Assembly (NCBI GenBank): GCA_945288535.1
Contig: CALYQQ010000009.1
Location: forward strand, 1-64,000
Direction: 5' to 3'
Length of the DNA stretch: 64,000 bases
Source: an uncultured Enterobacterales bacterium
Lineage (GTDB): Bacteria > Pseudomonadota > Gammaproteobacteria > Enterobacterales > CALYQQ01
The position numbers and the translations under genes were made by a program. How positions within the stretch are numbered: position 1 is the first letter of the stretch; each line of letters begins with the position of its first letter. The notes under the pieces are model-generated. The model made no database searches. It saw only the letters and a program-made list of their open reading frames with translations, and was not told the DNA's origin. Of the stretch, positions 2,240 through 64,000 are shown one piece after another.

Positions 2240-3636
2240 GATAACCCATCTGGGTCGCATTGGCTGGAAGCTCTCAGGATGACATATTGGCTTCGTTATA
2301 AACCCGGCTAACGATAATAGGTTGATCTGGATCACCGTTCATAAAATCCATAACAACTTCATCATTTAATCGCGGAATTTACATAGCGCCAAAACTTGAC
2401 CTGCTCAGCTACTAGCAACATCTATCCAGCATGAACGAGTATCATCATCTTTAACATAGCGAGCCCAATGAAATTTAACTTTTACCCTGCTATGTTTATC
2501 CGTCCAAATCGTTTCTCCTTCAGGATAAACTACCCGGGCAGTTTGCGGTCCTTGGGTTTTAGGTCATGACGTCGTGCGTGGTGTACGTCAAGACGTGGAA
2601 GTGGGAATAGCATAAAAATCACTCGCCTGACTGCGGTCAACATCACGGCTACTAGCATAAGTATTATCCCAAATAGAGTAAGTGCTTTGAATAATAAGAT
2701 ACGCCTGATTATCATCACTACGAGCGGACTTCACGACGGTCAGTTTACCGCTAGGAAGAGCCATACACGTCGTAGCACTACCGAGCATTTTTAATTGCTG
2801 TGCCACTTGTTCTTGCTGTCGAATTTCGTTATAGGCATAAGCCTGTTCACAGTCAATAAACCGCCCTGACCATTCAAAAGACTTCAGTAAATTTAAGTTT
2901 ATGGGATACTGCATTATTTTTATCATCGAAGAGCGTGGTGCAGGGTTTAGGATAATAGTCATTCATACTGACTTTACTGGCAGTGACAGAGCTACTAACC
3001 TGCCAATAGCTAATACAAATTTCATCGACTATTGCCGAGGCACCAGGATCATGATAAGCAATGAAGGGATAGGAAATTGGCTGATAAGCTTCAGGGTAAT
3101 CGGCTAATACTAGAGTACGCTGACCTTGCTGATGAGTAAAGTGGTAATAAATGCCCTTATGCTCCATTGGGCGGTTAATAAATAAATGCTAACCAACTTT
3201 CATTATATTGAATACAATAACCCCATTTGCGGTAATCACCAAAAATACGGTTATCAACCGTAATATTATAATTCAGCAATACGTGTTAATGATATCTGGA
3301 ACACGTTACTCCTGAAAAATGCGAAAGTCTTTATTTTGACTCAAATACCATAATCGAGGATAGACATCTGCTTGATAAATGTAATAGCGTGATGAGCCTT
3401 CTTCCTGACCTTTTAATTTTATGGAAATAATATCACCATTAAGCCAATGGTCAGAGGCATAAAGTTGTTTAACCTGAATAGAGATAGATTGTCCCAATAG
3501 AGAATTTAAATCGATATTGCTGTCAAGACTTACCATTTATATTAAATAATAAAATAGAGAGCGCTTCCTTGCCCCGTAACGAACAAAATAATAATTTATC
3601 TGCCAGCGAGGTATGTGCAATTACTAGTCTGGCCAT
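2240..3636 (-). pseudogene. vgrG: Degenerate vgrG (type VI secretion spike) pseudogene
   Basis: Fragments of one VgrG protein can be read in order on the minus strand but in changing frames. The N-terminal part starts at 3636 (ATG) with IAHTSLADKLL; a LLGQSISIQV segment lies in the 3306-3536 reading; then VPDIINT, EHKGIYYHF (2874-3167), a VSRVYNEAN segment near 2290, RVKVKFHWARYV near 2470, and LPANATQMGY near 2250. These match the gp27/gp5-like core of VgrG. Several frameshifts and stops break it and the C-terminal spike is missing. VgrG normally forms the tip of the T6SS tube. No other T6SS gene is in the window, so this is an orphan remnant. Confidence 0.85.
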
Positions 3637-8212: not shown

Positions 8213-8970
8213 ACCAATATTATAAAAATACCGCTGCCGTAGCATCGGATAATCATTATCCAGACACTATTCTCATCGGTCGTAACAAAATGCAAAAACA
8301 GGTGAATTTTATTTTGGCTGTTTACGCCTTGATTATTAAATTAGATTGCATCAAAAATGAGTTAACTATTCTTGTGTTTGACTTAATTTAATCGCATCAT
8401 TTACTTAAGAATTAGTTAGCAATCTAATACTTCGCTAGCAATTTAGTTGCAATAGGATATTTATTTTTTTATTTATACCTGAATATAAAAAAATTTATCG
8501 AATAAGATACTATTACTAACATATTGATAGATTTAAAACATTCGATGATCAAGAAAGATATATATGGCTACTATACAAAAAAAGTTAATTATTAATTTCT
8601 ATAGCAGATCATATTTGACTTGCTAACCTATCTAAACAGAATATAATTAAATTACTAGAAAGATGAATATCAATAATTATTGATAATAATAAATACTGAC
8701 AAAAAAAATAATTCTTACCGTTGAAAATATCTTGTCTATCGAAATTTTAAATGCTATTTTTCATCAAAATAAAAAATAAAAAAATATATATAATAAAATT
8801 ATCAAAGCATGTAACTATTTATAATTGCAGTTAACATAAAAAATACGCTTAATACAATATTTATTGTTTTAATTATAAAAGATAATTTATGTACAAAAGA
8901 ATAAATATATATTAAATAACGTAGTACAAGTATTTTAAATTTGGACTATTTATGTTTACTAGGAGAAGTT
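8213..8970. other. AT-rich intergenic region
   Basis: No gene, RNA or strong repeat is recognised. It separates the aspTD locus from the polyketide region. The ribosome binding site AGGAGAAG of the next gene is at 8961-8968. Confidence 0.4.
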
Positions 8971-9405
8971 ATGAATATTATATCGACCTTACATAAAGTT
9001 ACAGGATTTTTAGCTTTAACATTAATATTAATATTTATAACAAGCTCTATTTATATTGAAATAAATGGAAATGTTATTTTAATTCAAAAAGTCAAATCAC
9101 TAATAGTCTTTCCAGGTTTATTTATTTTAATTCCAAGCTTAATTATTACAGGTTCTGTTGGATTTCGCCTTGCTGGACAATCAAAAAACGTTTATATTTT
9201 AAAAAAGAAAAAGAGAATGCCATTTATTGCTTTAAATGGAATATTCATTCTCATTCCATGTGCTTTATATTTAAAATATCTTTCAACACATACGTTAGAT
9301 AGTACTTTTTATTTAGTTCAAACCTTAGAGATATGTGCAGGATTTATTAACTGTGTATTAATAATCTTAAATATTCGAGATGGGATCTGGATTAAAAAAA
9401 AATAA
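8971..9405 (+). CDS. Small four-helix membrane protein, function unknown
   Basis: 144 residues starting at ATG 8971, chosen over an in-frame TTG at 8941 because AGGAGAAG lies just upstream. Four hydrophobic segments are visible at about residues 8-28, 40-62, 84-103 and 114-135, separated by short basic loops (KKKKR near 78-83), so an integral inner-membrane protein is likely. One His in the first helix region (LHKVTGF) recalls small heme or copper membrane proteins, but that is weak. It lies directly upstream of the duplicated leader units of the polyketide operon and on the same strand; whether it belongs to that system is unknown. Confidence 0.5.
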   Translation: MNIISTLHKVTGFLALTLILIFITSSIYIEINGNVILIQKVKSLIVFPGLFILIPSLIITGSVGFRLAGQSKNVYILKKKKRMPFIALNGIFILIPCALYLKYLSTHTLDSTFYLVQTLEICAGFINCVLIILNIRDGIWIKKK

Positions 9406-9472
9406 AATTTATTACTTAGTCAACCCTTGTGGTCTTGATAAGTTATATTTAGTACTAATATAAGGATATGTT

Positions 9473-9589
9473 ATGTATATTGAATATATAATTTCACTAT
9501 TCATGGACGTTAATACTTCGCTTGATCATCTCAATAAAAATATTGAGATTTGGTCAAAAATTTTACCTTCCTATTTAATACAAATATAA
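9473..9589 (+). pseudogene. Cyclase 5'-end copy 1 (truncated)
   Basis: A 38-codon frame beginning MYIEYIISLF that parallels the start of the intact cyclase (MYTEHIVSLP), including the IEIWSKILP segment that matches VEIWPRIFP, then a TAA. Similarity continues a few bases past the stop. It keeps a plausible ribosome binding site, so a short peptide could still be made. Confidence 0.7.
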
Positions 9590-9682
9590 TAAAAGAATAA
9601 ATAACTAATAAAATATAATCTTTAATTCATTAATTTTTATAACTATGACAATTTATATTTTATACTACTACAAGGATATATT

Positions 9683-9808
9683 ATGTATATTGGACATATG
9701 ATTTTATTAACTATTAATATTAATTTACTATTTTTTCAAAATGAAAATAGTAACGTTCGGTCATATATTTCCTTTCCTTATTTAAAAATTAAAATAAAAA
9801 ACAATTAA
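9683..9808 (+). pseudogene. Cyclase 5'-end copy 2 (truncated, most diverged)
   Basis: A 41-codon frame beginning MYIGHMILLT. Similarity to the intact cyclase start is weaker than in copies 1 and 3, but the leader, ATG position and the ending around SFPYL match the unit. It ends in TAA inside an AT-rich run. Confidence 0.55.
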
Positions 9809-9890
9809 ATAATAAATAGTATATTATTCTTACTTAGTTAATTTTTATAAGTTTTAAAATTTATATTTCATATTAATATAAGGATATGTT

Positions 9891-9992
9891 ATGCAACTTG
9901 AATATATAATTTCATTTCCTATTGATGTTAATTCTTTATTTCATTTATGTAAAAACCTTGAAGTTTGGTCACAGATTTCTCCTCCTATTTAG
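9891..9992 (+). pseudogene. Cyclase 5'-end copy 3 (truncated)
   Basis: A 33-codon frame, MQLEYIISFPIDVNSLFHL and so on, the closest of the three to the intact gene. It stops at TAG because of a small deletion; beyond the stop the DNA still aligns with the intact gene (TTTAGATGCT and the following AATAAAGCA) to about 10015. Confidence 0.75.
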
Positions 9993-10096
9993 ATGCTGAT
10001 AATAAAGCATTCGAATACCAAACAGTCTATTGATCTTATTTAGTCAATCTTTGTAGTCTTGGTAATTTATATTTCATACTAGTACAAGGATATGTT

Positions 10097-11020
10097 ATGT
10101 ATACTGAACATATAGTTTCACTTCCCATTGACGTTAATTCAGCATTTGATCTATGCAGAAATGTCGAAATTTGGCCACGCATTTTTCCCCCTTGTTTAGA
10201 TGCTAAAATAATAAAGCAATCGAATGATAAACAGTATATTTCTCTAACCGCATTAGCAAATGGTAAGGTTTTTAGTTGGAAGTCTGAACGCGATATTGAT
10301 GTAGTAAATAAAACAATACGCTTTGAACAAACGCATAAATCACCTTTAGTTAAATTTATGACAGGAGAATGGAAAGTCAATAAATATCTAAATGGCAGTC
10401 AAATTGTATTAAAACATACATTTGATATTAAAAATGATATTAAAAATCTCGTGCCTGGTGTAAATACAGAAGCTGAAGCAATTGCCTTTATGAGAAAATC
10501 TGTTGATGAAAATAGTACTAAAGAATTAGAAGCTATTAGAAAGTATGTGAATTATTTAAATAATCACCATAAGTTTAGTGAAAAATTAATTATTCCTTTC
10601 AGTAAGTCAGCCGTTTTTAAGTTTTTGAAGGATGTCCAGCATTGGCCAGATTTATTATCTCATTGTCAAGCCATTAATATGCTATATGAGGATGAGTATA
10701 ATCAAGAGTTTGAAATGACCGTCTCCACACCAGATTATACAGAGCATTTAAGATCCATTCGTTATATTGGCGATAACTATATTCGCTACTTTCAACCCGT
10801 CCCTCCCCCAGTTTTAAAAGAGCATCGTGGTCAATGGAGTGTTAAAGAGGTACCTGAAGGTGTTGAGGTTATCTCGTGGCATGAAATTGTTTTAAGTGAG
10901 CAGTATGCTAATGAAGTACAAGATATACAAAAAGAAAAAGAAAAATTTGAAAAGGGAATTAATCGCGCAAGTCTTAATACTATGAAGGCCATTTTAAATA
11001 AACTACAAGGAGGTGTTTAA
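10097..11020 (+). CDS. Didomain polyketide aromatase/cyclase (SRPBCC)
   Basis: 307 residues forming two START/Bet v1-like (SRPBCC, polyketide cyclase) domains, at about residues 1-140 and 155-300. Each begins with the family pattern: VSLPIDVNSAFDL with VEIWPRIFP, and IIPFSKSAVFKFL with VQHWPDLLS. This two-domain layout is that of the ActVII/Gris type, which cyclises and aromatises the first ring of a C9-reduced poly-beta-ketone bound to the ACP. Its stop overlaps the ketoreductase start by one base (TTTAATG), so the two are translationally coupled. Ring-closure specificity is inferred from the partner ketoreductase. Three truncated copies of its 5' end precede it. Confidence 0.87.
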   Translation: MYTEHIVSLPIDVNSAFDLCRNVEIWPRIFPPCLDAKIIKQSNDKQYISLTALANGKVFSWKSERDIDVVNKTIRFEQTHKSPLVKFMTGEWKVNKYLNGSQIVLKHTFDIKNDIKNLVPGVNTEAEAIAFMRKSVDENSTKELEAIRKYVNYLNNHHKFSEKLIIPFSKSAVFKFLKDVQHWPDLLSHCQAINMLYEDEYNQEFEMTVSTPDYTEHLRSIRYIGDNYIRYFQPVPPPVLKEHRGQWSVKEVPEGVEVISWHEIVLSEQYANEVQDIQKEKEKFEKGINRASLNTMKAILNKLQGGV

Positions 11021-11793
11021 TGACCAAGAATGCAGTTATTACAGGCGCAAGCAAAGGAATAGGTAAAGCAATAGCGCAAAGATTAGTCTCAGACGGTTAT
11101 AACTGTGTATTAATGGCAAGAAATGAAAAGGCGCTCTCTTTAGCCGTTGATCAATTAAAAAACAATGAAGTTAAGGTTAGCTATGTTGTCTGTGATGTTA
11201 CACAACCAATGCAAGTTGCAGAAGCCTGGCGTGAAATTACGAGTAAAGTTGATTGCGTTGATGTATTAGTTAATTGTGCTGGTCGTAGTGGTGGAGGCAT
11301 AACAAAAGACCTATCAACTCAACTATGGTTAGATGTTATCAACACTAATCTAAATTCTGTATTTTTTGTTACGAGTACCGCTTTAAAAAATAATTTCATT
11401 CGTCAAGGTGGCAGTATTATTAACATTGCAAGTACTGGTGGAAAACAAGGCGTTATCCATGGAGCGCCTTATAGTGCCTCTAAACACGGTGTTGTTGGTT
11501 TTACCAAAGCACTGGGATTAGAGCTTGCTCGAAATGGTAGCAAAATTACAGTTAATGCAGTTTGCCCAGGGTTCGTTGAAACAGAAATGGCAGAAGAAGT
11601 CAGAGGCAATTACGCTAAATTGTGGAATACCACAAGCAGTGAAGTGAAAAAACGTATTGAAGATAGGATCCCCATAGGTCGTTATATAACGCCATCCGAA
11701 GTTGCAGCGATGGTATCTTTTTTATCTTCTGATGAAGCTAGAGGAATAACCGCCCAAGCGATTAATGTTTGTGGTGGATTGGGTAACTATTAA
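11020..11793 (+). CDS. ActIII-like polyketide ketoreductase (SDR)
   Basis: 257-residue short-chain dehydrogenase, strikingly like the actinorhodin C9 ketoreductase ActIII. It has TGASKGIG (residues 8-15) for NADPH, the catalytic set N110, S138, Y151 and K155 (YSASKHGVVGFTK), the NIASTGGKQGV and NAVCPGFVET segments, and the C-terminal VCGGLGNY. Predicted role: reduction of one keto group of the nascent ACP-bound polyketide before or with first-ring cyclisation. At the loop where ActIII has Pro-Gly-Gly, this protein has S90-G91-G92. An AAGGAGG ribosome binding site lies at 11007-11013. Distinguished from FabG by the C-terminus and the neighbours. Confidence 0.9.
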   Translation: MTKNAVITGASKGIGKAIAQRLVSDGYNCVLMARNEKALSLAVDQLKNNEVKVSYVVCDVTQPMQVAEAWREITSKVDCVDVLVNCAGRSGGGITKDLSTQLWLDVINTNLNSVFFVTSTALKNNFIRQGGSIINIASTGGKQGVIHGAPYSASKHGVVGFTKALGLELARNGSKITVNAVCPGFVETEMAEEVRGNYAKLWNTTSSEVKKRIEDRIPIGRYITPSEVAAMVSFLSSDEARGITAQAINVCGGLGNY

Positions 11794-11843
11794 TTAATTC
11801 GTAATTTGTTAGTTTACTTTTAAATCATTAATCAGGATTTTTT

Positions 11844-13121
11844 ATGGCTAGATTAGATAATAAGCCTGTTGTTATTACAGGTTTAGGTATTGTTGCGCCT
11901 GGAGCAATAGGTATAAAGCAATTTTGGGAAAAATGTATAGAAGGCCAAAGTGGTGTTTCTAATATAGACACTTTTAATACTGACCAATTTGATGCAAAAA
12001 TTGCAGGTATTGTAAAAGAGTTTGACCCCACAAAATATGGCGTCACCGAAGAACAAATTAATACATTTGATCGTTATGTTTTATTCGCGCTAGTTGCTGC
12101 TCAAGAAGCGATGAAACAGTCTGGATTAACCGAATATAATATGGATCCCACTAGAATCGGCGCCTGTATTGCAACAGCCATTGGTGGGACAAAATATATG
12201 GAGGAAGAGTTTTTAAGATTAACTAATAATTGCCATGAAGAATTAAATCCAGAATTGGTTTCGCCCAATATATTTGCAGGCGCTAGTTTTCATATGGCAA
12301 GCGCAGAAGTAGCTAAACAATACAATATACAGGGGCCAATACAAACCATAACAACGGGGTGCACAGCAGGGTTAGATGCGGTTGGACAAGCATTAGAACT
12401 CATTCGCACTGGTAAGGCAGATGTTGTTATTACCGGCGCGAGTGAAGCGCCTATTACGCCAATTGCAATGGCTGCATTTGATATCATCGGCGCATTAACA
12501 AGTGATCGTAATGATAATCCAGATAAGGCATCTCGCCCTTATGACAAAACTCGCTCAGGTTTTGTATTAGGTGAAGGATGTGGCTTGTTTATTTTAGAGT
12601 CAAAAGAACATGCACAAAAACGTAATGCGAAAATACTCGCAGAAGTTAAAGGATATGGTTCAACTTGTAACGCTTATCATATGACAGATTTATCTCCTGA
12701 AGGTGATGACTTAGCTAGAGCCATTAAACTTTCATTAGAGGATGCAGGTTTATGTCCCGATAAAATTGATTGCATTAATTCTCATGGAAGCTCTACGCCT
12801 CAAAATGATGTCAATGAAACAAATGCGATTAAGAAAGCTTTAGGGGATCATGCCTATAAAATCTCGATAAGCTCGTTAAAATCAATAATGGGACATGCAC
12901 TTGCGGCTGCTAATGCGATTGAACTCGTCGCAGGTGTGTTATCTATAGTCGAGCAAAAAGTATACCCCACCATCAATTATAAAGTTCCAGATCCTAATTG
13001 TGATTTAAATTATGTTCCTAATCAGGCTAAACCACTAAAAATAGACTACTTATTAAAAGATGCAAGTGGATTTTCAGGCATACATAGTTCATTAATCCTC
13101 GCAAGAAATATCTCGGACTAA
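11844..13121 (+). CDS. Type II PKS ketosynthase alpha (KS-alpha)
   Basis: 425-residue beta-ketoacyl synthase that condenses malonyl-ACP extender units as a heterodimer with the next gene product. The triad is intact: C173 in TTGCTAGLD, H314 in INSHGSSTP and H351 in IMGHALAAAN, with K346 nearby. The TGCTAGLD context and the length fit type II PKS KS-alpha, and the neighbours (chain length factor, ACP, cyclase) rule out a housekeeping FabF. It starts 50 bases after the ketoreductase. No dedicated malonyltransferase is present, so FabD of fatty acid synthesis probably loads the ACP. Confidence 0.92.
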   Translation: MARLDNKPVVITGLGIVAPGAIGIKQFWEKCIEGQSGVSNIDTFNTDQFDAKIAGIVKEFDPTKYGVTEEQINTFDRYVLFALVAAQEAMKQSGLTEYNMDPTRIGACIATAIGGTKYMEEEFLRLTNNCHEELNPELVSPNIFAGASFHMASAEVAKQYNIQGPIQTITTGCTAGLDAVGQALELIRTGKADVVITGASEAPITPIAMAAFDIIGALTSDRNDNPDKASRPYDKTRSGFVLGEGCGLFILESKEHAQKRNAKILAEVKGYGSTCNAYHMTDLSPEGDDLARAIKLSLEDAGLCPDKIDCINSHGSSTPQNDVNETNAIKKALGDHAYKISISSLKSIMGHALAAANAIELVAGVLSIVEQKVYPTINYKVPDPNCDLNYVPNQAKPLKIDYLLKDASGFSGIHSSLILARNISD

Positions 13122-13183
13122 CACTATAAGGCTATATAACAATGTCAGAATATTCAGATTAACATTATAAGGATATAAAAATG
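13118..13183 (+). repeat. Short tandem duplication of the KS-alpha/KS-beta junction
   Basis: The end of the KS-alpha gene with its following AACACTATAAGG and ATG is repeated about 39 bp later as AACATTATAAGG and the true ATG of the next gene. The first copy leaves a six-codon frame (MSEYSD, 13142-13162) between the two synthase genes. Confidence 0.65.
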
Positions 13184-14284
13184 ACAAGAAATGTTGTTAT
13201 TACAGGCGTTGGCACTCTATTACCGGAAGTTAACTCATTAGAACAGCTTTATAATATTCACTCTTTAGATAAGGAGATCTCAATCAAAAAAAATGGCGAT
13301 ATTGTTGCCACAGTAATTAACACAGAAATCATTAGTCAATATATTGCCCCTAGACTCGCTAAAAAACTAGACGAATTTACTTGTTATGCATTGATTGCAG
13401 CTCAATTTGCTTTAGATGATGCTCAACTAAACTTAGACACCATTGATAAAAAACGTTGTGGTGTATTTGTTGGTAATAGTTTTGGTGGCTGGCGATTTAC
13501 AGAACGTGAATTATATAAATTACATATAGAAGGACCACGAGCCGTCAGCCCATTTCAAGCGACAAGCTGGTTTCCTGCTGCTCCGCAAGGTCAGATTACC
13601 ATTAAATATGGAATAAAAGGATTTAGTAAAACTTTTATGGCTGATCGTTCAAGTAGTTTACACAGTGTTTCTGCAGCAGCAGATCAAATTAAAAATGGTC
13701 GATTAGATTTTGCTATTGCAGGTGGCTGTGAAAGTATTAACTGCCCATTCGTAGTGGCCGCTTTATCTAAATTAATCTCGAATAGTTTTTTGATTAAAAA
13801 GAGTAAATTTCCAATATCTGAAGGCGCTGTGTTCTTTATTTTAGAAACCGAAGAAACAGCTAAAGCGAGTGGACGAAAAATATACGCCAGACTGGGCAAC
13901 TTAGCTATTTCAAACTTGCCTTGTGAGTCCAATCTTTATGGTACAAGGGCTCAACCTTATGAGCGAGCAATGTCTTTAGCACTCACTAATATTAAACCTG
14001 ATGTGATTTTAACGGATGCAATAAGTTTACCAGATGTTAATAAAGCTGAACTTGATGCTGTGAGAAAAGTATGCGGTGATGTTGCTATCTCTACCCCTAA
14101 ATTGAAGTTTGGTCATAGCTTTGGTACTGAAGGAGCATTAGATATCGCCTACGCTTGTTTAATGCTCAATAAACAGAAAAACTTTTTGAAAAAAAATGAT
14201 ATTAATCAATCCATTAACAATGTACTGATTAACTCTAGTGCTGTTGGCGGGAGTGTCAGCAGTTTATTATTAAGTAACTTATAG
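13181..14284 (+). CDS. Type II PKS chain length factor (KS-beta)
   Basis: 367-residue ketosynthase-like partner of KS-alpha, expected to set chain length and generate the acetyl starter by decarboxylation. Aligning by eye with the KS-alpha (L, V, I, G and D positions fall in register), the active-site Cys is replaced by R156 in MADRSSSLHS. Well-known chain length factors have Gln there, in an ADQ context. The first catalytic His is also lost, while KFGHSFGTEGA keeps the second. The protein is shorter than typical 400-residue homologs. Position directly between KS-alpha and ACP is diagnostic. Whether Arg still supports priming cannot be told from sequence. Confidence 0.87.
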   Translation: MTRNVVITGVGTLLPEVNSLEQLYNIHSLDKEISIKKNGDIVATVINTEIISQYIAPRLAKKLDEFTCYALIAAQFALDDAQLNLDTIDKKRCGVFVGNSFGGWRFTERELYKLHIEGPRAVSPFQATSWFPAAPQGQITIKYGIKGFSKTFMADRSSSLHSVSAAADQIKNGRLDFAIAGGCESINCPFVVAALSKLISNSFLIKKSKFPISEGAVFFILETEETAKASGRKIYARLGNLAISNLPCESNLYGTRAQPYERAMSLALTNIKPDVILTDAISLPDVNKAELDAVRKVCGDVAISTPKLKFGHSFGTEGALDIAYACLMLNKQKNFLKKNDINQSINNVLINSSAVGGSVSSLLLSNL

Positions 14285-14296
14285 AGAAATAACAAA

Positions 14297-14530
14297 ATGA
14301 CTGAATTAACTAACATTGTTTTAGAATCAATTAAGAATTATTTAGGTTCCGTAAACGCCAATATCAACCTCGACACTTTATTAGATGAAGAATATAACTT
14401 AGATTCTACTGAAATGGTTTGTATTGCTGTTGATATAGAAAAAAAGATCGGTAAAAGCCTGAAGGAGGTTTCGTTTAGTAGTTTAAAAACACCAAGAGAT
14501 GTTATCAATTCTATTAAAGAGCTTGTATAA
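14297..14530 (+). CDS. Type II PKS acyl carrier protein
   Basis: 77-residue acidic carrier protein, the cofactor-bearing carrier of the polyketide chain. The phosphopantetheine site is S37 in YNLDSTEM; the usual motif is DSL, so a Thr follows the Ser here. Helix 2 (DSTEMVCIAVDIEKKIG) and the C-terminal PRDVINSIKELV are typical. It follows the chain length factor by 12 bases. A dedicated Sfp-type transferase at the end of the operon is the likely activator. Confidence 0.9.
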   Translation: MTELTNIVLESIKNYLGSVNANINLDTLLDEEYNLDSTEMVCIAVDIEKKIGKSLKEVSFSSLKTPRDVINSIKELV

Positions 14531-14555
14531 CACTAGTAATTGAGGAAGAAGGGGT

Positions 14556-15110
14556 ATGCATATTTATATTGATTTTATTGATAAAAATAACAAAATAGGT
14601 TTACCGTTATTATATACTCAGGATATAGAACGAGTACGACAATGGTATTTCATTTCAGCAAATATTCCTGAGTTATCTTTAGGCAACTATCAATATAATA
14701 AAAGTAAAGATATTGTTGTCTCTTTGCTTTCAAAGGCTACCCCTAACCTTAGCAAAAATGGACACGTCTATAAAATTGCCAAGCATGGATTTAAAAAGGG
14801 CATTTCAAAAAAAAATAAAAAGGATTTTTTTCTTATTACAGCATGTAAAGTTGATAATCAAATTGAAGAAATTCGTTTTTTAAAACAATTTGATACGGCT
14901 TTAACATATATAACTAATCAAGAAGGATTTGTTAGGTTCTGGCTATTACAAAATCTATCTAAAGAGGGACCTTATCGTTACATTAATATAGCCCAATGGA
15001 AAAATCTTGATTATTTCATGAGTACATTCAACAACAAAAAGTTCCAAGAAAAATTAGATAGCGAGTTGAGTATGCGTAACCAAATTACTATCTCAAAATT
15101 AAAATTCTGA
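14556..15110 (+). CDS. ABM-type monooxygenase-like protein 1
   Basis: 184 residues. The C-terminal half is a clear antibiotic-biosynthesis-monooxygenase (ABM, dimeric ferredoxin-like) domain with FVRFWLLQN and YINIAQWKNLDYF. The N-terminal half is weak: it is shorter and lacks the recognisable second ABM pattern that the next three proteins keep. ABM proteins in aromatic polyketide clusters (TcmH, ActVA-Orf6) oxidise anthrone-type rings to quinones without a cofactor. Of the four paralogs this is the most degenerate, so a non-catalytic or partner role is possible. Ribosome binding site GAGGAAG lies upstream. Confidence 0.65.
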   Translation: MHIYIDFIDKNNKIGLPLLYTQDIERVRQWYFISANIPELSLGNYQYNKSKDIVVSLLSKATPNLSKNGHVYKIAKHGFKKGISKKNKKDFFLITACKVDNQIEEIRFLKQFDTALTYITNQEGFVRFWLLQNLSKEGPYRYINIAQWKNLDYFMSTFNNKKFQEKLDSELSMRNQITISKLKF

Positions 15111-15131
15111 TAAATCAATATAGGGACAAAT

Positions 15132-15731
15132 ATGCTATATAATATTGATATTATAAAAGATGAAATCGTCGTTACTAATTGGAAAAATGCTATAGATAAG
15201 CAATGTAAGTTTACTGGATTTAAAGAAGCTAAGTTACAAAAAGTTTATAAGAAAATTAATATTGATGGCTATGCTTATGTCAGTATAGTCGCTTGGGATA
15301 CAGCAGATAACTACCATAATGCCTTACACGAAGTAAAAAAAACTCAAGAACAACACTGCACATTATTTAGTAACTCATTTTTTATTATCAACTCGGCAGA
15401 TAATCAGAAAGAAATAGAGAGAGGCGTAGATGATAAGACTAAACTTATTGTCACCAATCCTTATCGTATTTCAACCGTCGATGCCGAAAAAAATGCTGAG
15501 ATGTGGGACATATCAAAAAAGCATATGCAAAATCAGGATGGTTTTATTCGGGCAAGGCTTTATCAATGTACCGACGCTAAAGGTGAGTATTATTTTGTTA
15601 GCCAAGCTGAATGGCGTACAGAAGAAATGTTTATGAAACAATTTGAAGGAAAAGACTTTAAACAAATTATAAAACCATTTGAAAAAGTTTTTTCAATTTG
15701 CTTTTTGCATGAATTAACTAGGATAGATTAA
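15132..15731 (+). CDS. Two-domain ABM-type monooxygenase-like protein 2
   Basis: 199 residues with two ABM-like halves, about residues 1-95 and 100-199. The first has FKEAKLQKVY and YVSIVAWDTADNY; the second has FIRARLYQC and FVSQAEWRTEEMF. Each matches the family pattern of a beta strand, then (I/V)xxW, then an aromatic-containing helix. A cofactor-free ring oxygenase acting on the cyclised polyketide is the best guess from context. It lies 21 bases after paralog 1 and 16 bases before paralog 3. Heme-degrading IsdG-like proteins share the fold, but the neighbourhood argues for polyketide tailoring. Confidence 0.75.
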   Translation: MLYNIDIIKDEIVVTNWKNAIDKQCKFTGFKEAKLQKVYKKINIDGYAYVSIVAWDTADNYHNALHEVKKTQEQHCTLFSNSFFIINSADNQKEIERGVDDKTKLIVTNPYRISTVDAEKNAEMWDISKKHMQNQDGFIRARLYQCTDAKGEYYFVSQAEWRTEEMFMKQFEGKDFKQIIKPFEKVFSICFLHELTRID

Positions 15732-15747
15732 ACAATAGGGAGTAATA

Positions 15748-16377
15748 ATGATTTATATTTTTGACCTTATCACGACACCAGAAGTGGAAAATACAATTAA
15801 ACTATGGCGTTCGATAGGTAAGCTATTATCTGCTAATAAAGGCTTTTTAGGTGGACAATTACTAGAAACACAACAGAGTATTCATCCTAGAAAAGATTAT
15901 AAACTATCGAGCTTTTGTATCTGGGAAAACAATGATGATTGGCAAAATGCGAGAGCCAAAGTTAAACAAAATACAGAAGTTATCAAATTATTAGGTTCAA
16001 ATGAAAGTAAGTTTCATCCTTTTTATGCAGAACTGATTGCAGGAAAAGGCTTTCATTGTAAACAGCCAAAAGATGAAATGATTTTAATAGATATTGTTTA
16101 TTTACCTCCTGAAAGAATGGATGGTTATATCAATATGTGGAATAAAGCTAAGGCATATATGGAACATAAATCAGGATATATCAATGCCAGCCTTTATAAA
16201 ACAATAGATTCATCTAATGAAATGAAATTTATCAATATTGCTGAATGGCAGTCTTTTGATGTATTTGATACAGCTTTAAATAATGAAGAATTTATAGCTA
16301 TTTTAGGTGAATATAAAAATGACTTTGCATTATATATCAGTAAACGAAAACACCTGCTAAATATACATCCTAACTAA
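15748..16377 (+). CDS. Two-domain ABM-type monooxygenase-like protein 3
   Basis: 209 residues, two ABM-like domains: FLGGQLLET with LSSFCIWENNDDW in the first half and YINASLYKT with FINIAEWQSFDVF in the second. The start is supported by AGGGAGT at 15737-15743. It is the best-preserved of the four tandem paralogs at both W-containing motifs. Predicted to modify the aromatic polyketide, most likely by hydroxylation or quinone formation; substrate unknown. A 97-base gap follows, holding a 9-bp stem hairpin (16398-16406 with 16418-16426) that may be a processing or attenuation site inside the operon. Confidence 0.78.
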   Translation: MIYIFDLITTPEVENTIKLWRSIGKLLSANKGFLGGQLLETQQSIHPRKDYKLSSFCIWENNDDWQNARAKVKQNTEVIKLLGSNESKFHPFYAELIAGKGFHCKQPKDEMILIDIVYLPPERMDGYINMWNKAKAYMEHKSGYINASLYKTIDSSNEMKFINIAEWQSFDVFDTALNNEEFIAILGEYKNDFALYISKRKHLLNIHPN

Positions 16378-16474
16378 CTTATTAATCTAAAAAACTATTC
16401 TCAAAATCATACTACATTTTTGAGAAAGTTTGTTGTGCAGAAAATTTAGTTTGAACTAAAACAGGAACTAAACA

Positions 16475-17086
16475 ATGCATTATGTGATAGAAGTTATCAA
16501 GCAAAGTAATAAAAAAGCTGAAGTTCGTGAACAGTTGCACAAATATATTCATTCTATTCTCTCTCTTCAAGGACTCATCACAGTCGAATTGTTTGAAAAA
16601 CATACAAATATTCGTGATGCTGATTATGATTTTACCATACTCAGTAGTTGGTTGTCAGAGCAAGATTATTTAACGTCAAACAAAATAGCCAATAACCTCA
16701 TTGATAAAAATATAGAAATACATGCAAGCTATCAATGTGAAATCAAACTTGGGGAAATTGATAATCACGATACCACATATTGTTGGTTAATTAACCCATT
16801 TGAGGTAACGCACGAGCAACTACCAGATGTAATTGATATGTGGGATAAAGCCAAAGATCATCTCATCATAAAACCAACTTTTGTAAGCGCAAGACTATTT
16901 AAAGCTTTAGATAAAAATGCAACTTATGGTCTAGTCAATATCGCACAATGGAGAGATGCAAAACAATTTTTGCAGGCTGTTGAAGAAAAAGAATATGAAC
17001 CGCATAAAGAACGATCTTTAGCTTATCGATTACATGCCTCTCTTTGTGAGCGGATAGCCTTTTATACACCATTAAATTCAAAATAA
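16475..17086 (+). CDS. Two-domain ABM-type monooxygenase-like protein 4
   Basis: 203 residues, two ABM-like domains. The first half reads LITVELFEKH with TILSSWLSEQDY; the second reads FVSARLFKAL with LVNIAQWRDAKQF. AGGAAC upstream of ATG 16475 is a plausible ribosome binding site. Divergence from paralogs 1-3 is about as large as among them, suggesting an old series of duplications with separate tasks rather than recent amplification. Function inferred from family and context only. Confidence 0.76.
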   Translation: MHYVIEVIKQSNKKAEVREQLHKYIHSILSLQGLITVELFEKHTNIRDADYDFTILSSWLSEQDYLTSNKIANNLIDKNIEIHASYQCEIKLGEIDNHDTTYCWLINPFEVTHEQLPDVIDMWDKAKDHLIIKPTFVSARLFKALDKNATYGLVNIAQWRDAKQFLQAVEEKEYEPHKERSLAYRLHASLCERIAFYTPLNSK

Positions 17087-17097
17087 TAGGATAGGTC

Positions 17098-17826
17098 ATG
17101 GAAAAGATAAAAAAAACGGCATTAATTACTGGTGCGAGTAGAGGTATAGGTAAAGCTATTGCCACCTATTTTGCAAGCAAGGAGTATAATCTAATACTCA
17201 TAGCTAAAAATTATAATACTCTAGAAAATCTAAAGAATACATTGAACTTAACGTATGGTGTAAATATACAGATTATTAGTATTGACTTGACAGACGCAGC
17301 ACAAATAAATACTAAATTAACTAGCGTATTAGGTGAACTTAAACAGTTAGATATTGTTGTAAACTCTGCAGGCGTTTTCAAGTTTGGTTCAAGTACACTT
17401 CCTCTCTCTGATCTTAATGAAATGTTTTTATTAAATGTGCAGGCAACACATCACATTTGTACCTTATGTTTACCCTTGCTTAAGGCTAATTTAAATAAAA
17501 CATATATTTTTAATTTATCGTCAATCGCAGGCGTTGAAAGCTTTGCGCCAATCGCCGGTTATGTTGCAAGTAAACATGCAATAGTTGGCTATAGCCAATC
17601 GTTGGCTAAAGAGGTGATTAATCATAATGTTAGTGTGGTATCCCTCTGTCCAGATACGGTTAATACCGATATGGCCATTCCGTCAGGTATGCCGAGTGAT
17701 CTTATGATAGAACCAGAAGATTTATGTAAAACTATTGATTTCGTTTTATCGCTTTCAAATGAAGCCGTTGTTAATCAAATAGTATTACGTTGTAAGACGC
17801 TAATAGAAAAAGAAAACCAAAGATAA
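17098..17826 (+). CDS. Tailoring short-chain dehydrogenase/reductase
   Basis: 242-residue classical SDR with TGASRGIG (residues 11-18), an NSAG motif, a catalytic Ser in FNLSSIAG, and YVASK for Tyr and Lys. It is clearly different from the ActIII-like enzyme: it lacks the GGLGNY tail and the STGGKQG segment. In this setting a second ketoreduction, or a post-cyclisation reduction of a ring or quinone, is likely. It lies 11 bases after ABM protein 4 and one base before the phosphopantetheinyl transferase, so it is surely in the operon. Confidence 0.8.
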   Translation: MEKIKKTALITGASRGIGKAIATYFASKEYNLILIAKNYNTLENLKNTLNLTYGVNIQIISIDLTDAAQINTKLTSVLGELKQLDIVVNSAGVFKFGSSTLPLSDLNEMFLLNVQATHHICTLCLPLLKANLNKTYIFNLSSIAGVESFAPIAGYVASKHAIVGYSQSLAKEVINHNVSVVSLCPDTVNTDMAIPSGMPSDLMIEPEDLCKTIDFVLSLSNEAVVNQIVLRCKTLIEKENQR

Positions 17827-17827
17827 T

Positions 17828-18439
17828 ATGCATAAAAAATGGGTTATTATACCTTTTACTGGTATAAGTGACATTAATTATAACTCATCAAATAGTTATG
17901 TTTTTTTAATAGAAGGAACAGCAAATTTTTTAAGAAAGAACAGCATGTTACTTGCTATCCTACTGTTAAGAAAACTAACTCAACAGGATCTTGTAATTAA
18001 AAAAAACAAACAGGGAAAACCCTATATTCCTAACAGTAGTTTAGCTATTAGTCTCAGCCATAGTGCGAATTATTTGGCTATTGCTTTTAGTCAACGAAAT
18101 GTTGGTATTGATATTGAGTACTTACGCTATCCAAATAAATGGTTGGACTTGTTTTATTGGATTACTCAAGATGTTGAAAGGCCCACCGTAGTGTCATCAG
18201 AGTATTTTTTACGATGTTGGACGAGTAAAGAAGCTGTATACAAATTTATAGGTGGCGGTCTAAATACAAGCATACAAAATATTTTTATTCGGAATATTAA
18301 TGAGCTAACAACATGTAGGCTTAAAACTTATGATTGCTATTTAACAGAATTACCTAAATATAAAAATTTAACGATATCCATAGCTTCATTATTATTACGC
18401 CCATTTGAACTCTATTTTTGTAATTTATCTTTAAAATAA
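17828..18439 (+). CDS. Sfp-type 4'-phosphopantetheinyl transferase
   Basis: 203-residue transferase that moves phosphopantetheine from CoA to the serine of a carrier protein (EC 2.7.8.7). The family motifs are in order: ISLSHSANYLAIAF, the Mg-binding GIDIEYL, and WTSKEAVYKFIGGG. The length fits a Sfp/EntD-like enzyme rather than AcpS (about 125 residues). As last intact gene of the operon it is presumably dedicated to the ACP encoded by the cluster. Confidence 0.88.
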   Translation: MHKKWVIIPFTGISDINYNSSNSYVFLIEGTANFLRKNSMLLAILLLRKLTQQDLVIKKNKQGKPYIPNSSLAISLSHSANYLAIAFSQRNVGIDIEYLRYPNKWLDLFYWITQDVERPTVVSSEYFLRCWTSKEAVYKFIGGGLNTSIQNIFIRNINELTTCRLKTYDCYLTELPKYKNLTISIASLLLRPFELYFCNLSLK

Positions 18440-57266: not shown

Positions 57267-60200
57267 ATGCAAATGAACAGACGTCAATTTTTCAAACTTT
57301 GCGCAAGTAGCATGGCAGGTACAACAGTTGCACTGCTAGGTTTTTCTCCCTTAACGGTTTTAGCAGGATCACGTAGTCATAAAGTATTACGTGCTAAAGA
57401 AGTCCGTAATACTTGTACCTATTGTTCTGTTGGGTGCGGCCTTCTCATGTATTGTCTTGGTGATGGCGCTAAAAATGCTACTCCTTATTTATATCATATT
57501 GAAGGTGATCCTGATCACCCAGTAAGTCGCGGAGCACTTTGCCCGAAAGGGGCAGGCTTGATTGACTTTGTTAATAGTGAGAATCGACTTCGTTATCCTG
57601 AATATCGGGCGCCGGGCTCAACTCATTGGCAGCGTATTAGTTGGCAAGACGCTATTGATAGAATAGCTAAATTGATGAAAAATGATCGAGATACCAATTT
57701 CATTGAAAAGAATGATCAAGGCGTTACAGTTAATCGCTGGTTAACCACTGGTATGCTTTGTGCATCAGCAGCTAATAATGAAACAGGTTATCTTGATCAA
57801 AAATTTAGCCGTGCACTTGGTATGCTGGCTGTTGACAATCAAGCACGTGTCTGACACGGACCTACGGTAGCAAGTCTTGCTCCAACATTTGGTCGCGGCG
57901 CCATGACAAATCATTGGGTTGATATAAAAAATGCTGATGTTATTATCGTCATGGGAGGTAATGCTGCAGAGGCTCACCCAGTAGGCTTTCGTTGGGTAAT
58001 CGAAGCTAAAATACACAATAACGCAAAATTAATTGTCGTTGACCCACGCTTTAATCGGACAGCATCTGTTGCTGATATTTATACACCAATTCGCTCAGGA
58101 ACGGACATTGCCTTTTTATCGGGCGTTATTAATTATCTTATTAATGAAAATAAAATATTTACCGAATATGTAATCAATTATACCAATGCAAGCCTGCTTG
58201 TTAGATCTGATTTTAATTTTCAGGATGGATTATTTAGTGGTTATGATGCTAACCAACGTCATTATGATAAATCTTCCTGGCATTATGAATTAGATGCAAA
58301 TGGCTTCGCGCGCCGTGATATAACATTGACTCATCCCAGATGTGTTTGGAATCTACTAAAACATCATGTTAGTCGCTATACTACCGATGTTGTTGAACTC
58401 ATTTGTGGTACACCAAAACAAGATTTTCTGGAAATTTGTCGATTACTTGCTGATACTTCCGTTGCAAATAAAACCGCCACATTTCTATATGCATTAGGAT
58501 GGACACAGCACTCTATTGGTGCACAAAATATCCGGACAATGGCTATGATCCAATTATTACTTGGTAATATTGGTATGGTAGGTGGTGGTGTTAATGCGCT
58601 TCGTGGCCACTCTAATATTCAGGGATTAACTGACTTAGGCCTCTTATCGCAATCCTTACCCGGGTATATGTCATTACCTTCAGAACAACAACCTACATTA
58701 GAATGTTACTTAACTGCCAATACGCCAAAAGCATTATTGCCAAACCAAATAAATTATTGGGCTAACTATCCAAAATTCTTTGTCAGCATGATGAAATCTT
58801 TTTTTGGCGTACATGCTCAAAAAGAGAATAACTGGGGTTATGATTGGTTACCTAAATGGGATAATGTTTACGATGTACTCCACTACTTTAACTTAATGGA
58901 TGAAGGTAAAGTTAATGGTTATCTCTGTCAGGGCTTTAATCCAGTGGCGTCTTTACCTGACAAAAATAAAGTAGTACGCGCTTTATCTAAATTAAAATTC
59001 TTAGTTATTGCCGATCCCTTAGCAACAGAAACATCTGAGTTTTGGCAAAATCATGGTGAAATGAATGATGTTGATCCTGCTCTTATCCAAACCGAAGTAT
59101 TTCGTTTACCAACAACTTGTTTTGCTGAAGAAGAAGGTTCGATTGTAAACTCAGCACGTTGGTTACAGTGGCACTGGCTAGGTGCTCAACCACCAGGTGA
59201 AGCAAAATCGGACGGTGAAATTCTTAGTCGTTTACTTATGCGATTGAGAGAATTGTATCAACAAGAGGGCGGTGTTCAGCCTGCTCCTATTATGAACATT
59301 AACTGGGATTATTTAATTCCAGAGATCCCTAGTGCCGAAGAAGTAGCTAAAGAATACAATGGTATAGCACTTACAGATATTCTGGATAATAATGGCAATA
59401 TAGTCGTTAGAAAAGGAGAGCAATTACAGAGTTTTGCTCAGTTACGCGATGATGGTACAACAGCAAGCGGTTGTTGGATTTTTACCGGATGCTGGACGCC
59501 AGCAGGTAACCAAATGGCTAAGCGCGACAACGCCGATCCGAGTGGATTAGGAAACACGCCTGGATGGGCGTGGGCATGGCCCGCTAATCGTAGAATTATT
59601 TATAATCGAGCATCATTAGATCCCCAAGGAAACCCATGGAATATTTCACGTAAACTTATCGAATGGGAGGGAAGTCACTGGACAGGAATTGATATTGCCG
59701 ATTATGGCGCCACGACACCACCTAATGCAGAAGCGGGACCATTTATTATGCAGCCCGAAGGAATGGCTCGTTTGTTTGCATTAGATAAAATGGCCGAAGG
59801 TCCATTTCCTGAACATTATGAACCCATTGAAACCCCTATAGGAACAAATCCTCTTCATCCTAATATTGTCAATAATCCGGTCGTCCGTATTTTTGACGAA
59901 GATCTCTCTCGGATAGGTTCTGCCGAACGTTTTCCTTATATTGGAACAACCTACCGTTTAACTGAACATTTCCACTTTTGGACAAAGCATTCCCAGCTTA
60001 ATGCCATCATACAACCTGAAGCCTTTGTCGAAATTAGTGAAACACTAGCTGATCTCAAAGGTATTCATCCAGGCGATCGCGTTAAAGTAACGAGTCAGCG
60101 TGGTTTTATTAAAGCAAAAGCGGTTGTAACACGTCGAGTAAGAGCACTCAATATCAATGGCAAGCAAATAGAAACGGTAGGTATTCCGATTCACTGGGGA

Positions 60201-60317
60201 TTTAAAGGAATAGCAAAAAAAGGATTTATCAGTAATACATTAACCCTTTTCGCTGGTGATCCTAATACTCAGACACCAGAATACAAAACTTTTTTGGTTA
60301 ACATCGAAAAAGAGTAA
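57267..60317 (+). CDS. fdnG: Formate dehydrogenase alpha subunit, selenoprotein
   Basis: 1016-residue catalytic subunit of respiratory formate dehydrogenase; it oxidises formate to CO2 at a molybdenum bis-MGD centre. Residues 1-33 are a Tat signal (NRRQFFK), so the enzyme faces the periplasm. CTYCSVGCG begins the [4Fe-4S] site. The TGA at 57852-57854 is read as selenocysteine, Sec196 (QARV-Sec-HGPT), because the frame continues with full homology for 820 codons and a SECIS follows. Length matches E. coli FdnG/FdoG (1015-1016). Followed directly by fdnH. Confidence 0.96.
57852..57898 (+). promoter_or_regulatory. Selenocysteine codon and SECIS element, copy 1
   Basis: In-frame TGA followed by a hairpin with inner stem AGCAA/TTGCT (57869-57873, 57877-57881), loop GTC, and an outer GACC/GGTC pairing. 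The spacing from the TGA fits bacterial SECIS, which binds SelB in the mRNA coding region. Confidence 0.9.
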
Positions 60318-61291
60318 TGGGAATCAACATGTCACTACAAAGCCAAGATATCATTAAACGCTCTGCAACAAATAAACTTACGCCACCACCACAGGTGAGG
60401 TGTTATCAAGAAGAAGTGGCTAAGCTAATTGACGTAACAGTTTGTATTGGTTGTAAAGCTTGTCAAGTGGCTTGTGCTGAATGGAATGATTTACGAGATA
60501 CTGTGGGTCATAATCAAGGGATCTACGATAATCCCTGCGATTTAACTGCCAAAACATGGACAGTAATGCGCTTCAGTGAAACAGAAACCAATGGTAAATT
60601 GGAATGGTTAATTCGCAAAGATGGCTGTATGCACTGTAGTGACCCTGGTTGCTTAAAAGCTTGCCCATCAGCAGGTGCAATTATTCAATATGCTAATGGC
60701 ATTGTTGATTTTCAGTCGGAAAATTGCATAGGGTGCGGTTACTGTATTGCTGGCTGCCCTTTTAATATTCCAAGATTAAATAAAGCAGATAATCGAGTTT
60801 ATAAATGTACTCTTTGTATCGACCGAGTAAATGTAGGTCAAGAACCAGCCTGTGTAAAAACATGCCCAACAGGAGCAATTCATTTTGGTAGTAAAACAGC
60901 AATGAAACGATTAGCCGCTGAACGCATTGCTGAATTACAAATCAGAGGCTTTGAACATGCCGGCCTTTATGATCCACCAGGTGTAGGGGGCACGCACGTC
61001 ATGTATGTTTTACACCATGCTAATAAACCAGAGCTTTATCATAATTTACCTATCGATCCTCATATAAGTCCTGTCGTTGGTTTTTGGAAAGGCATTCTGA
61101 AACCACTGTCAGCAATAGGCTTTTTGATCACTATTACAGGACTTATTTACCATTATATTGGGATTGGTCCTAATAAGACTGACAAGACTGACAAGACTGA
61201 CAAGACTGACAAGACTGACAAGACTGACAAGACTGACAAGACTAATGATCAACCATATGATACAACAAAGGAACATCATGAAAGAAAATAA
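60317..61291 (+). CDS. fdnH: Formate dehydrogenase iron-sulfur beta subunit
   Basis: 324-residue electron-transfer subunit carrying four [4Fe-4S] clusters: [40 protein letters not shown] and CTLC with [10 protein letters not shown]-terminal helix ([15 protein letters not shown] to ITGLIYHY) anchors it in the membrane. After this helix comes a tail of seven Asp-Lys-Thr repeats, not a normal part of the family. Its start overlaps the fdnG stop by one base and its end overlaps fdnI by 14 bases. An alternative start MSLQSQ at 60329 is possible. Confidence 0.94.
61181..61243 (+). repeat. 9-bp tandem repeat (GACAAGACT)7 inside fdnH
   Basis: Seven perfect copies of GACAAGACT, preceded by one imperfect copy (AATAAGACT). 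In the fdnH frame each unit is exactly three codons, Asp-Lys-Thr. Copy-number change by slippage would lengthen or shorten the cytosolic tail without a frameshift. Confidence 0.97.
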
Positions 61292-63180: not shown

Positions 63181-64000
63181 ATGCAAGTCAGCAGAAGACA
63201 GTTCTTTAAGATCTGTGCTGGCGGTATGGCTGGAACAACGGTAGCCGCTTTGGGATTTATGCCAACCGAAGTATTGGCTGAAACACGCAATTATAAATTA
63301 TTACGCGCCAAAGAAGTTCGTAATACATGCACATATTGTTCCGTCGGCTGCGGTTTATTAATGTATAGTCTAGGTGATGGGGCTAAAAATGCCAGTGCCC
63401 ATATCTTTCATATCGAAGGTGATCCTGATCATCCAGTAAGTCGCGGGGCACTTTGCCCAAAAGGTGCGGGACTTCTTGATTATGTTAACAGCCCTAATCG
63501 TTTAAAATACCCACAATATCGAGCACCAGGTTCAACAGAATGGCAACGTCTTAGCTGGGATGACGCGCTAAATCGCATTGCGCGTTTAATGAAAGATGAT
63601 CGTGATGCCAATTTCATAAAAACCAATGAACAAGGTGTGACAGTAAATCGCTGGCTCACTACCGGTATGTTATGTGCCTCGGCAGCCAGTAATGAAACTG
63701 GGCTACTTGATCAAAAATTTGCCCGCGCATTAGGCATGCTTTCAGTAGACAACCAAGCGCGTATTTGACACGGACCAACGGTAGCAAGTCTTGCTCCAAC
63801 ATTTGGTCGCGGTGCCATGACCAACCACTGGGTTGATATAAAGAATGCCAATGTTATCGTCGTCATGGGTGGTAATGCCGCAGAAGCGCATCCTGTCGGT
63901 TTCCGCTGGGCGATGGAAGCGAAAACGCATAATAATGCTAAGCTGATTGTAATCGATCCTCGTTTTACAAGAACAGCTTCGGTAGCTGATTTTTATACTC
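63181..64000 (+). CDS. fdoG: Second formate dehydrogenase alpha subunit (partial)
   Basis: A second selenoprotein alpha subunit that runs off the window; 273 codons are visible. Tat signal [16 protein letters not shown], in-frame TGA at 63766-63768 as Sec196 (QARI-Sec-HGPT), then [15 protein letters not shown]. The protein is clearly paralogous to the first copy but diverged at many positions, so this is not a very recent duplication. AAAGGAG precedes the start. Position divergent to fdhD makes it the likely fdoG counterpart; H and I subunits would lie beyond the end. Confidence 0.93.
63766..63812 (+). promoter_or_regulatory. Selenocysteine codon and SECIS element, copy 2
   Basis: TGA plus the next 44 bases differ from copy 1 at a single position, while the coding sequence on both sides differs at many synonymous positions. 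That is direct evidence for selection on the RNA hairpin. Confidence 0.9.

Follow-up and report, generated by a model that had tools for sequence, protein, structure and literature searches.

In Buchnera of some aphid strains, trpEG occurs in pseudogene arrays, and amplified genes are carried on plasmids. Such arrays would be the nearest parallel to the locus described here. As in the trpEG expansion of Buchnera outlined in PMC4122931, a biosynthetic segment is amplified in an A+T-rich bacterium. However, whole genes are concerned there, whereas here the repeated segment consists of only a spacer and the 5′ end of a gene and lies within an operon. The other system to be compared is the sigH locus of Staphylococcus aureus. 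As summarized in PMC3486894, short-junction tandem duplications are generally unstable in bacteria, and the one at sigH is easily cured and apparently not RecA-dependent. Both loci show a spontaneous tandem duplication with ends inside genes, intact copies on both sides, and a partial copy that has its own ribosome binding site. According to the same outline (PMC3486894), the sigH duplication is recent, measures 1.2–1.9 kb, and creates an in-frame fusion, whereas the array described here is old and decayed, comprises four copies of 208 bp, and encodes no fusion protein.

The window, meaning the whole stretch of 64,000 nucleotides that was analyzed, stems from an uncultured Enterobacterales bacterium and contains a string of type II PKS genes for an aromatic polyketide. 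The cyclase gene of this string (10097–11020) is preceded by three tandem partial copies, giving four head-to-tail units of ~208 bp. The features are listed in the following; the assignments of the ACP-like protein and of the first ABM-like protein rest on scores just below the Pfam cut-offs.

8971–9405, + strand: gene of a small membrane-type protein, 43% identical to the Paraburkholderia gene (L012) directly before the cyclase and 39% identical to the Azospirillum neighbor
9411–9620, + strand: unit 1 (u1), spacer and relic of cyclase codons 1 to ~48; frame 9473–9589 of 38 aa, with a 1-nt deletion after codon 35
9621–9828, + strand: unit 2 (u2), spacer and cyclase 5′ relic, the most decayed and A+T-richest (15% G+C in the aligned stretch); frame 9683–9808 of 41 aa, with a 1-nt deletion in codon 39
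9829–10034, + strand: unit 3 (u3), spacer and the cyclase 5′ relic nearest to the intact gene (77%); frame 9891–9992 of 33 aa, with a 1-nt deletion in codon 32
10035 to ~10241, + strand: unit 4 (u4), functional spacer plus the 5′ part of the intact cyclase, continuing into 10097–11020
9443–9475 (u1), 9653–9685 (u2), 9861–9893 (u3), and 10067–10099 (u4), + strand: retained initiation region (−30 to +3); the four units agree at 27 of its 33 columns
10097–11020, + strand: intact aromatase/cyclase of 307 aa with two SRPBCC/Polyketide_cyc domains (Pfam PF03364, PF10604), alignable with the Azospirillum protein over the full length
11020–18439, + strand: rest of the type II PKS string, assigned by Pfam and ordered as in Azospirillum; ketoreductase, KS, second KS-like (in the chain-length-factor position), ACP-like, four ABM-like, SDR, and phosphopantetheinyl transferase

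The four ATG codons at 9473, 9683, 9891, and 10097 open frames of 38, 41, 33, and 307 residues, respectively, and their start-to-start spacing of 210, 208, and 206 bp is confirmed as given in the first-pass annotation. There, each unit had been described as a 62-bp leader followed by 33–41 codons of the cyclase start. The spacer of ~62 nt is found as described, but the coding extent was set too short: because the homology continues past the points where the short frames stop, the unit is a spacer plus ~48 codons. Over 209–213 aligned columns, the pairwise identity amounts to 77% for u3–u4, 72% for u1–u4, 70.5% for u2–u3, 69% for u1–u3, 67% for u2–u4, and 66% for u1–u2. Local alignment scores of whole units lie 17.6 to 42.8 standard deviations above those of dinucleotide shuffles for the six pairs, and none of 1000 shuffles reaches any of them. 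The coding part alone, without spacer and start codon, still scores 8.8 to 38.3 standard deviations above shuffles (0 of 1000 for each of the six pairs). When the 5′ half of the spacer is taken alone, the shuffle test detects similarity in four of the six pairs, and none is detectable there for u1–u2 (880 of 1000 shuffles as good) and u2–u4 (219 of 1000). The units are thus alike over spacer and coding part and not at the ribosome binding site alone, so that the initial observation stands, including the description of copies that are diverged (66–77% identity) yet keep their period and their Shine–Dalgarno (SD) sequence. It is firmly supported that the copies are tandem duplications of one contiguous segment.

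The stop codon of the conserved upstream gene at 8971–9405 is followed by the u1 spacer at a distance of 5 nt, and the array is therefore internal to a conserved gene string. This membrane-type gene stands ahead of the cyclase in type II PKS strings of three genera; its longer frame, 8941–9402, yields no Pfam match. In Azospirillum brasilense (ABSP7_p3), the membrane-type gene is followed by cyclase, SDR, KS, second KS-like, ACP, four ABM, SDR, and PPTase in the identical order, and the two cyclases are 45% identical. The ABM-like genes of the window are four consecutive ones of 184–209 aa (14556–17086), and A. brasilense also has four. At the locus of Paraburkholderia caffeinitolerans, the ORFs, as read by eye, fit that order up to the ACP. 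Unlike the present locus, neither of the two has tandem copies of the cyclase 5′ end at the DNA level. The gap from membrane gene to cyclase measures 56 nt in P. caffeinitolerans (L012; gene end 3944, cyclase start 4001) and 816 nt in Azospirillum. Here, the distance from the stop codon of the membrane gene is 67 nt to the ATG of u1 and 691 nt to the intact cyclase. With 67 nt here versus 56 nt in Paraburkholderia, u1 therefore occupies the expected place of the cyclase start. Judged by the Paraburkholderia arrangement, the array would be an insertion within the gene string and not a region upstream of the string.

At all 14 related loci, the 4 kb upstream of the cyclase contain no copy of its 5′ end at the DNA level, the start of the match being used as gene start, which is inexact for distant loci. 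Two of these loci, as far as checked, share the neighboring membrane gene; the other 12 are distant (27–33% identical) and weak witnesses for the ancestral spacer. In this search, the query's own spacer accounts for the 62-nt perfect matches; an extra match of 14 nt (E 0.008) was obtained at each of L017 and L018. Upstream matches at the protein level occur at two loci, namely L011, where the match lies inside a separately annotated cyclase gene, and L020.

Compared with u4, the aligned stretch of which has a G+C content of 31%, the relics are A+T-richer (22% G+C in u1, 15% in u2, and 23% in u3). In all 11 ungapped columns where only u4 differs, u4 has G or C and every relic has A or T. The residues T3 and P27, which are invariant in a three-protein alignment, are missing from all three relics, and W26 is missing from u2. 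In each relic, the frame is broken by a single-base deletion, with the stop codon of the short frame lying only a few codons away. Within relic codons 1–31, the sole length change is one of 3 nt, and all single- and double-base gaps lie further downstream. It had been offered as one reading that the short peptides were kept for control, with dN/dS of the short frames as a check. Run as pN/pS, this check gives no significant peptide constraint and does not support that reading: no pair of short frames is significantly below neutral in composition-aware permutations (lowest one-sided P 0.06, three null models). For u1–u3, P is 0.07–0.15; pairs that include u2 exceed the neutral median, and u2–u3 lies beyond 99% of one null. 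The uncorrected NG86 omega is ~0.4 for pairs among u1, u3, and u4 and 1–2 for pairs with u2, values that over 31 codons are not read as selection and that leave room for past constraint on u1 and u3.

The explanation that is favored, and considered probable, is partial tandem amplification within the operon, with the three stubs being fossils that are translated incidentally at most. A segment of ~208 bp that starts just past the stop codon of the membrane gene and extends into the cyclase as far as about codon 48 would have been duplicated to a total of four adjacent copies. One end of the segment is intergenic and the other lies inside the cyclase, which is why the upstream gene and the last cyclase are intact and the three extra copies are truncated. 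The stubs would then have drifted toward A+T through substitution and frameshift, and their short peptides would have no sequence-specific function. Since SD and ATG survive, the stubs probably are still translated, if incidentally. The copies probably arose within a short time of each other, because the six distances look nearly star-like (judged by eye, without a tree). By analogy, an origin by short-junction (RecA-independent) duplication is likely, the junctions here being too diverged to be read.

The SD sequence AAGGATAT and the ATG are identical in all four units. Of the 33 columns from −30 to +3, 27 are identical throughout, and the best 33-column window is as high in 0.03% of 20,000 permutations. 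In this permutation, which includes the intact copy with its surely constrained start, invariance was shuffled between columns sharing the same base. A comparison restricted to the relics finds 27 of 33 identical columns in the block versus 88 of 171 elsewhere (P 0.0014–0.0021), and the 11 columns of SD and ATG give P 0.0015–0.0025. The best window anywhere gives P 0.04, and for the block this value is the safer one because the −30 limit was picked after viewing the alignment, while SD and ATG were nameable beforehand. The open frames were simulated under neutral substitution, with indels left out. Starting from u4, the probability of at least 32 open codons is 0.19, 0.21, and 0.43 for the three relics (product ~0.017), a simulation that overstates relic divergence because part of the divergence belongs to u4; starting from the consensus, it is 0.20, 0.19, and 0.66 (product ~0.025). 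Taken together, the evidence for a better retention of the initiation region than plain neutral decay predicts is suggestive but not decisive. The block may also have been spared by gene conversion or by a mutation rate that is locally low. The pattern of the initiation region, with up to three mismatches allowed, occurs four times in the 2.52-Mb genome, each time in the array.

The retention of the start signals can also be read as the result of selection for translation itself. Herein, SD, start codon, and open frame of the stubs would have been kept so that ribosomes cover the 691-nt insert and shield the downstream operon from Rho-dependent polarity or RNA decay. The identity of SD and ATG in four units, with P ~0.002 for the relics alone, is consistent with this, and so is the layout, in which frames of 38, 41, and 33 codons split the untranslated gap of 691 nt into pieces of 67, 93, 82, and 104 nt. 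An unconstrained amino acid sequence is what such a model expects, and the lack of any length change other than 3 nt in the first 31 relic codons, with 1- and 2-base gaps lying later, also fits. However, the window-wide conservation test gives only P 0.04, and the open frames are only mildly unexpected. The indels may crowd the tail of the unit because it is rich in A runs, and the insert is C-poor (9–13% in u1–u3) and would thus be a poor Rho target. Such shielding is regarded as unlikely, albeit as the first competitor of the fossil reading. It is likewise doubtful that the stubs form a selected chain of frames without peptide function that would ferry ribosomes over an insertion in the operon, with only start signals and open frame being under selection.

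The same conserved stretch of ~33 nt may instead be a promoter or binding site that was multiplied to tune the cyclase operon, for which the strong conservation from −30 to −1 (24 of 30 columns identical in the four units) would speak. The array, however, sits within a conserved gene string, and no sigma-70-like site recurs in register between units; the number of promoter-like sites in 8300–11100 is at shuffle expectation (22 versus 24.0). Transcriptional control by repeated promoters in the stub leaders, another part of the initial proposal, is not supported by these counts. Control by RNA structure fares no better, as the consensus fold reaches only −8.3 kcal/mol, and the whole stretch has a z-score of −1.3, as good a fold being reached by 3 of 20 shuffles. 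No terminator-like site is found in 8300–11100, the terminator/antiterminator folds of leader-peptide attenuation are not detected, and a run of regulatory codons is not seen by eye in the stub translations. Rfam gives three matches at gathering scores within the window, none of them in the array. The site of a wider regulator would, moreover, be expected to recur, whereas the pattern is absent elsewhere in the genome. A repeated regulatory element is deemed very improbable. Hardly credible at all is the idea that the stubs are silent cassettes exchanging sequence with the intact gene. The tandem homology to an expressed gene would suit it, but the relics have lost family-invariant residues and frames, and the six distances are roughly star-like with a drift toward A+T. 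Between the fossils and the control that the first-pass annotation had set side by side, tandem duplication is upheld, while control by conserved peptides, RNA structure, or repeated promoters is not; what remains is the retention of the initiation region.

Repeats of this kind are rare in the part of the genome that was scanned. A scan of 363,901 bases, i.e., the window and 15 stretches of its own genome (~14% of the genome), for 150-nt ungapped segments with at least 62% identity at lags of 60–2000 found eight places, five of them in the array. The three places outside the array correspond to a tandem tRNA-Leu pair with a distance of 192 nt and to two adjacent pairs of paralogues (proteins 44% and 38% identical). 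Of 30 further gene starts examined in the window, none has a copy of the gene's own 5′ end within 2 kb upstream (E 1e-5). Three further matches to the array elsewhere in the genome were rejected as composition noise, being A+T-rich and showing no unit in the printed stretches; under permissive scoring, they reach 74 bits at best, unrelated A+T-rich sites of the window up to 80 bits, and the array up to 366 bits.

Some other features of the window lie apart from the array. A perfect 9-nt repeat, AAGACTGAC, is present in 7.7 copies at 61175–61243, in the 3′ end of the gene of a formate-dehydrogenase iron-sulphur subunit (60317–61291). SECIS_3 elements at 57849–57907 and 63763–63821 each end a frame of 195 aa, suggesting that these two frames belong to two neighboring selenocysteine formate dehydrogenase genes. 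The minus strand at 2588–3167 resembles a broken vgrG-like gene: a pair of overlapping frames there hits neighboring parts of Phage_GPD (VgrG/baseplate hub), the one scoring above the Pfam cut-off and the other below it.

The genus and family sets searched for a sister genome, with the cyclase and the KS as queries, each comprised only the window's own genome. The same genome is the only one matched by the cyclase among 394 sampled genomes of the order (E 1e-20), 369 of the class, and 398 of the phylum (E 1e-30). A scan of genome contigs with the single cyclase protein yielded no confirmed locus, and one with the three-protein alignment yielded 12 loci of 27–43% identity. The same alignment gave nothing confirmed in viral contigs, and the array DNA had no match among plasmids. 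In the literature searched (titles and abstract openings, among the matches listed), no description of such an array was found.

The array has lasted until its copies differ by 23–34%, although short-junction duplications are generally unstable. It displays how an operon-internal partial amplification that escaped loss is built. If the retained start signals are functional, the array would further provide a natural test of selection for translating meaningless frames within operons.
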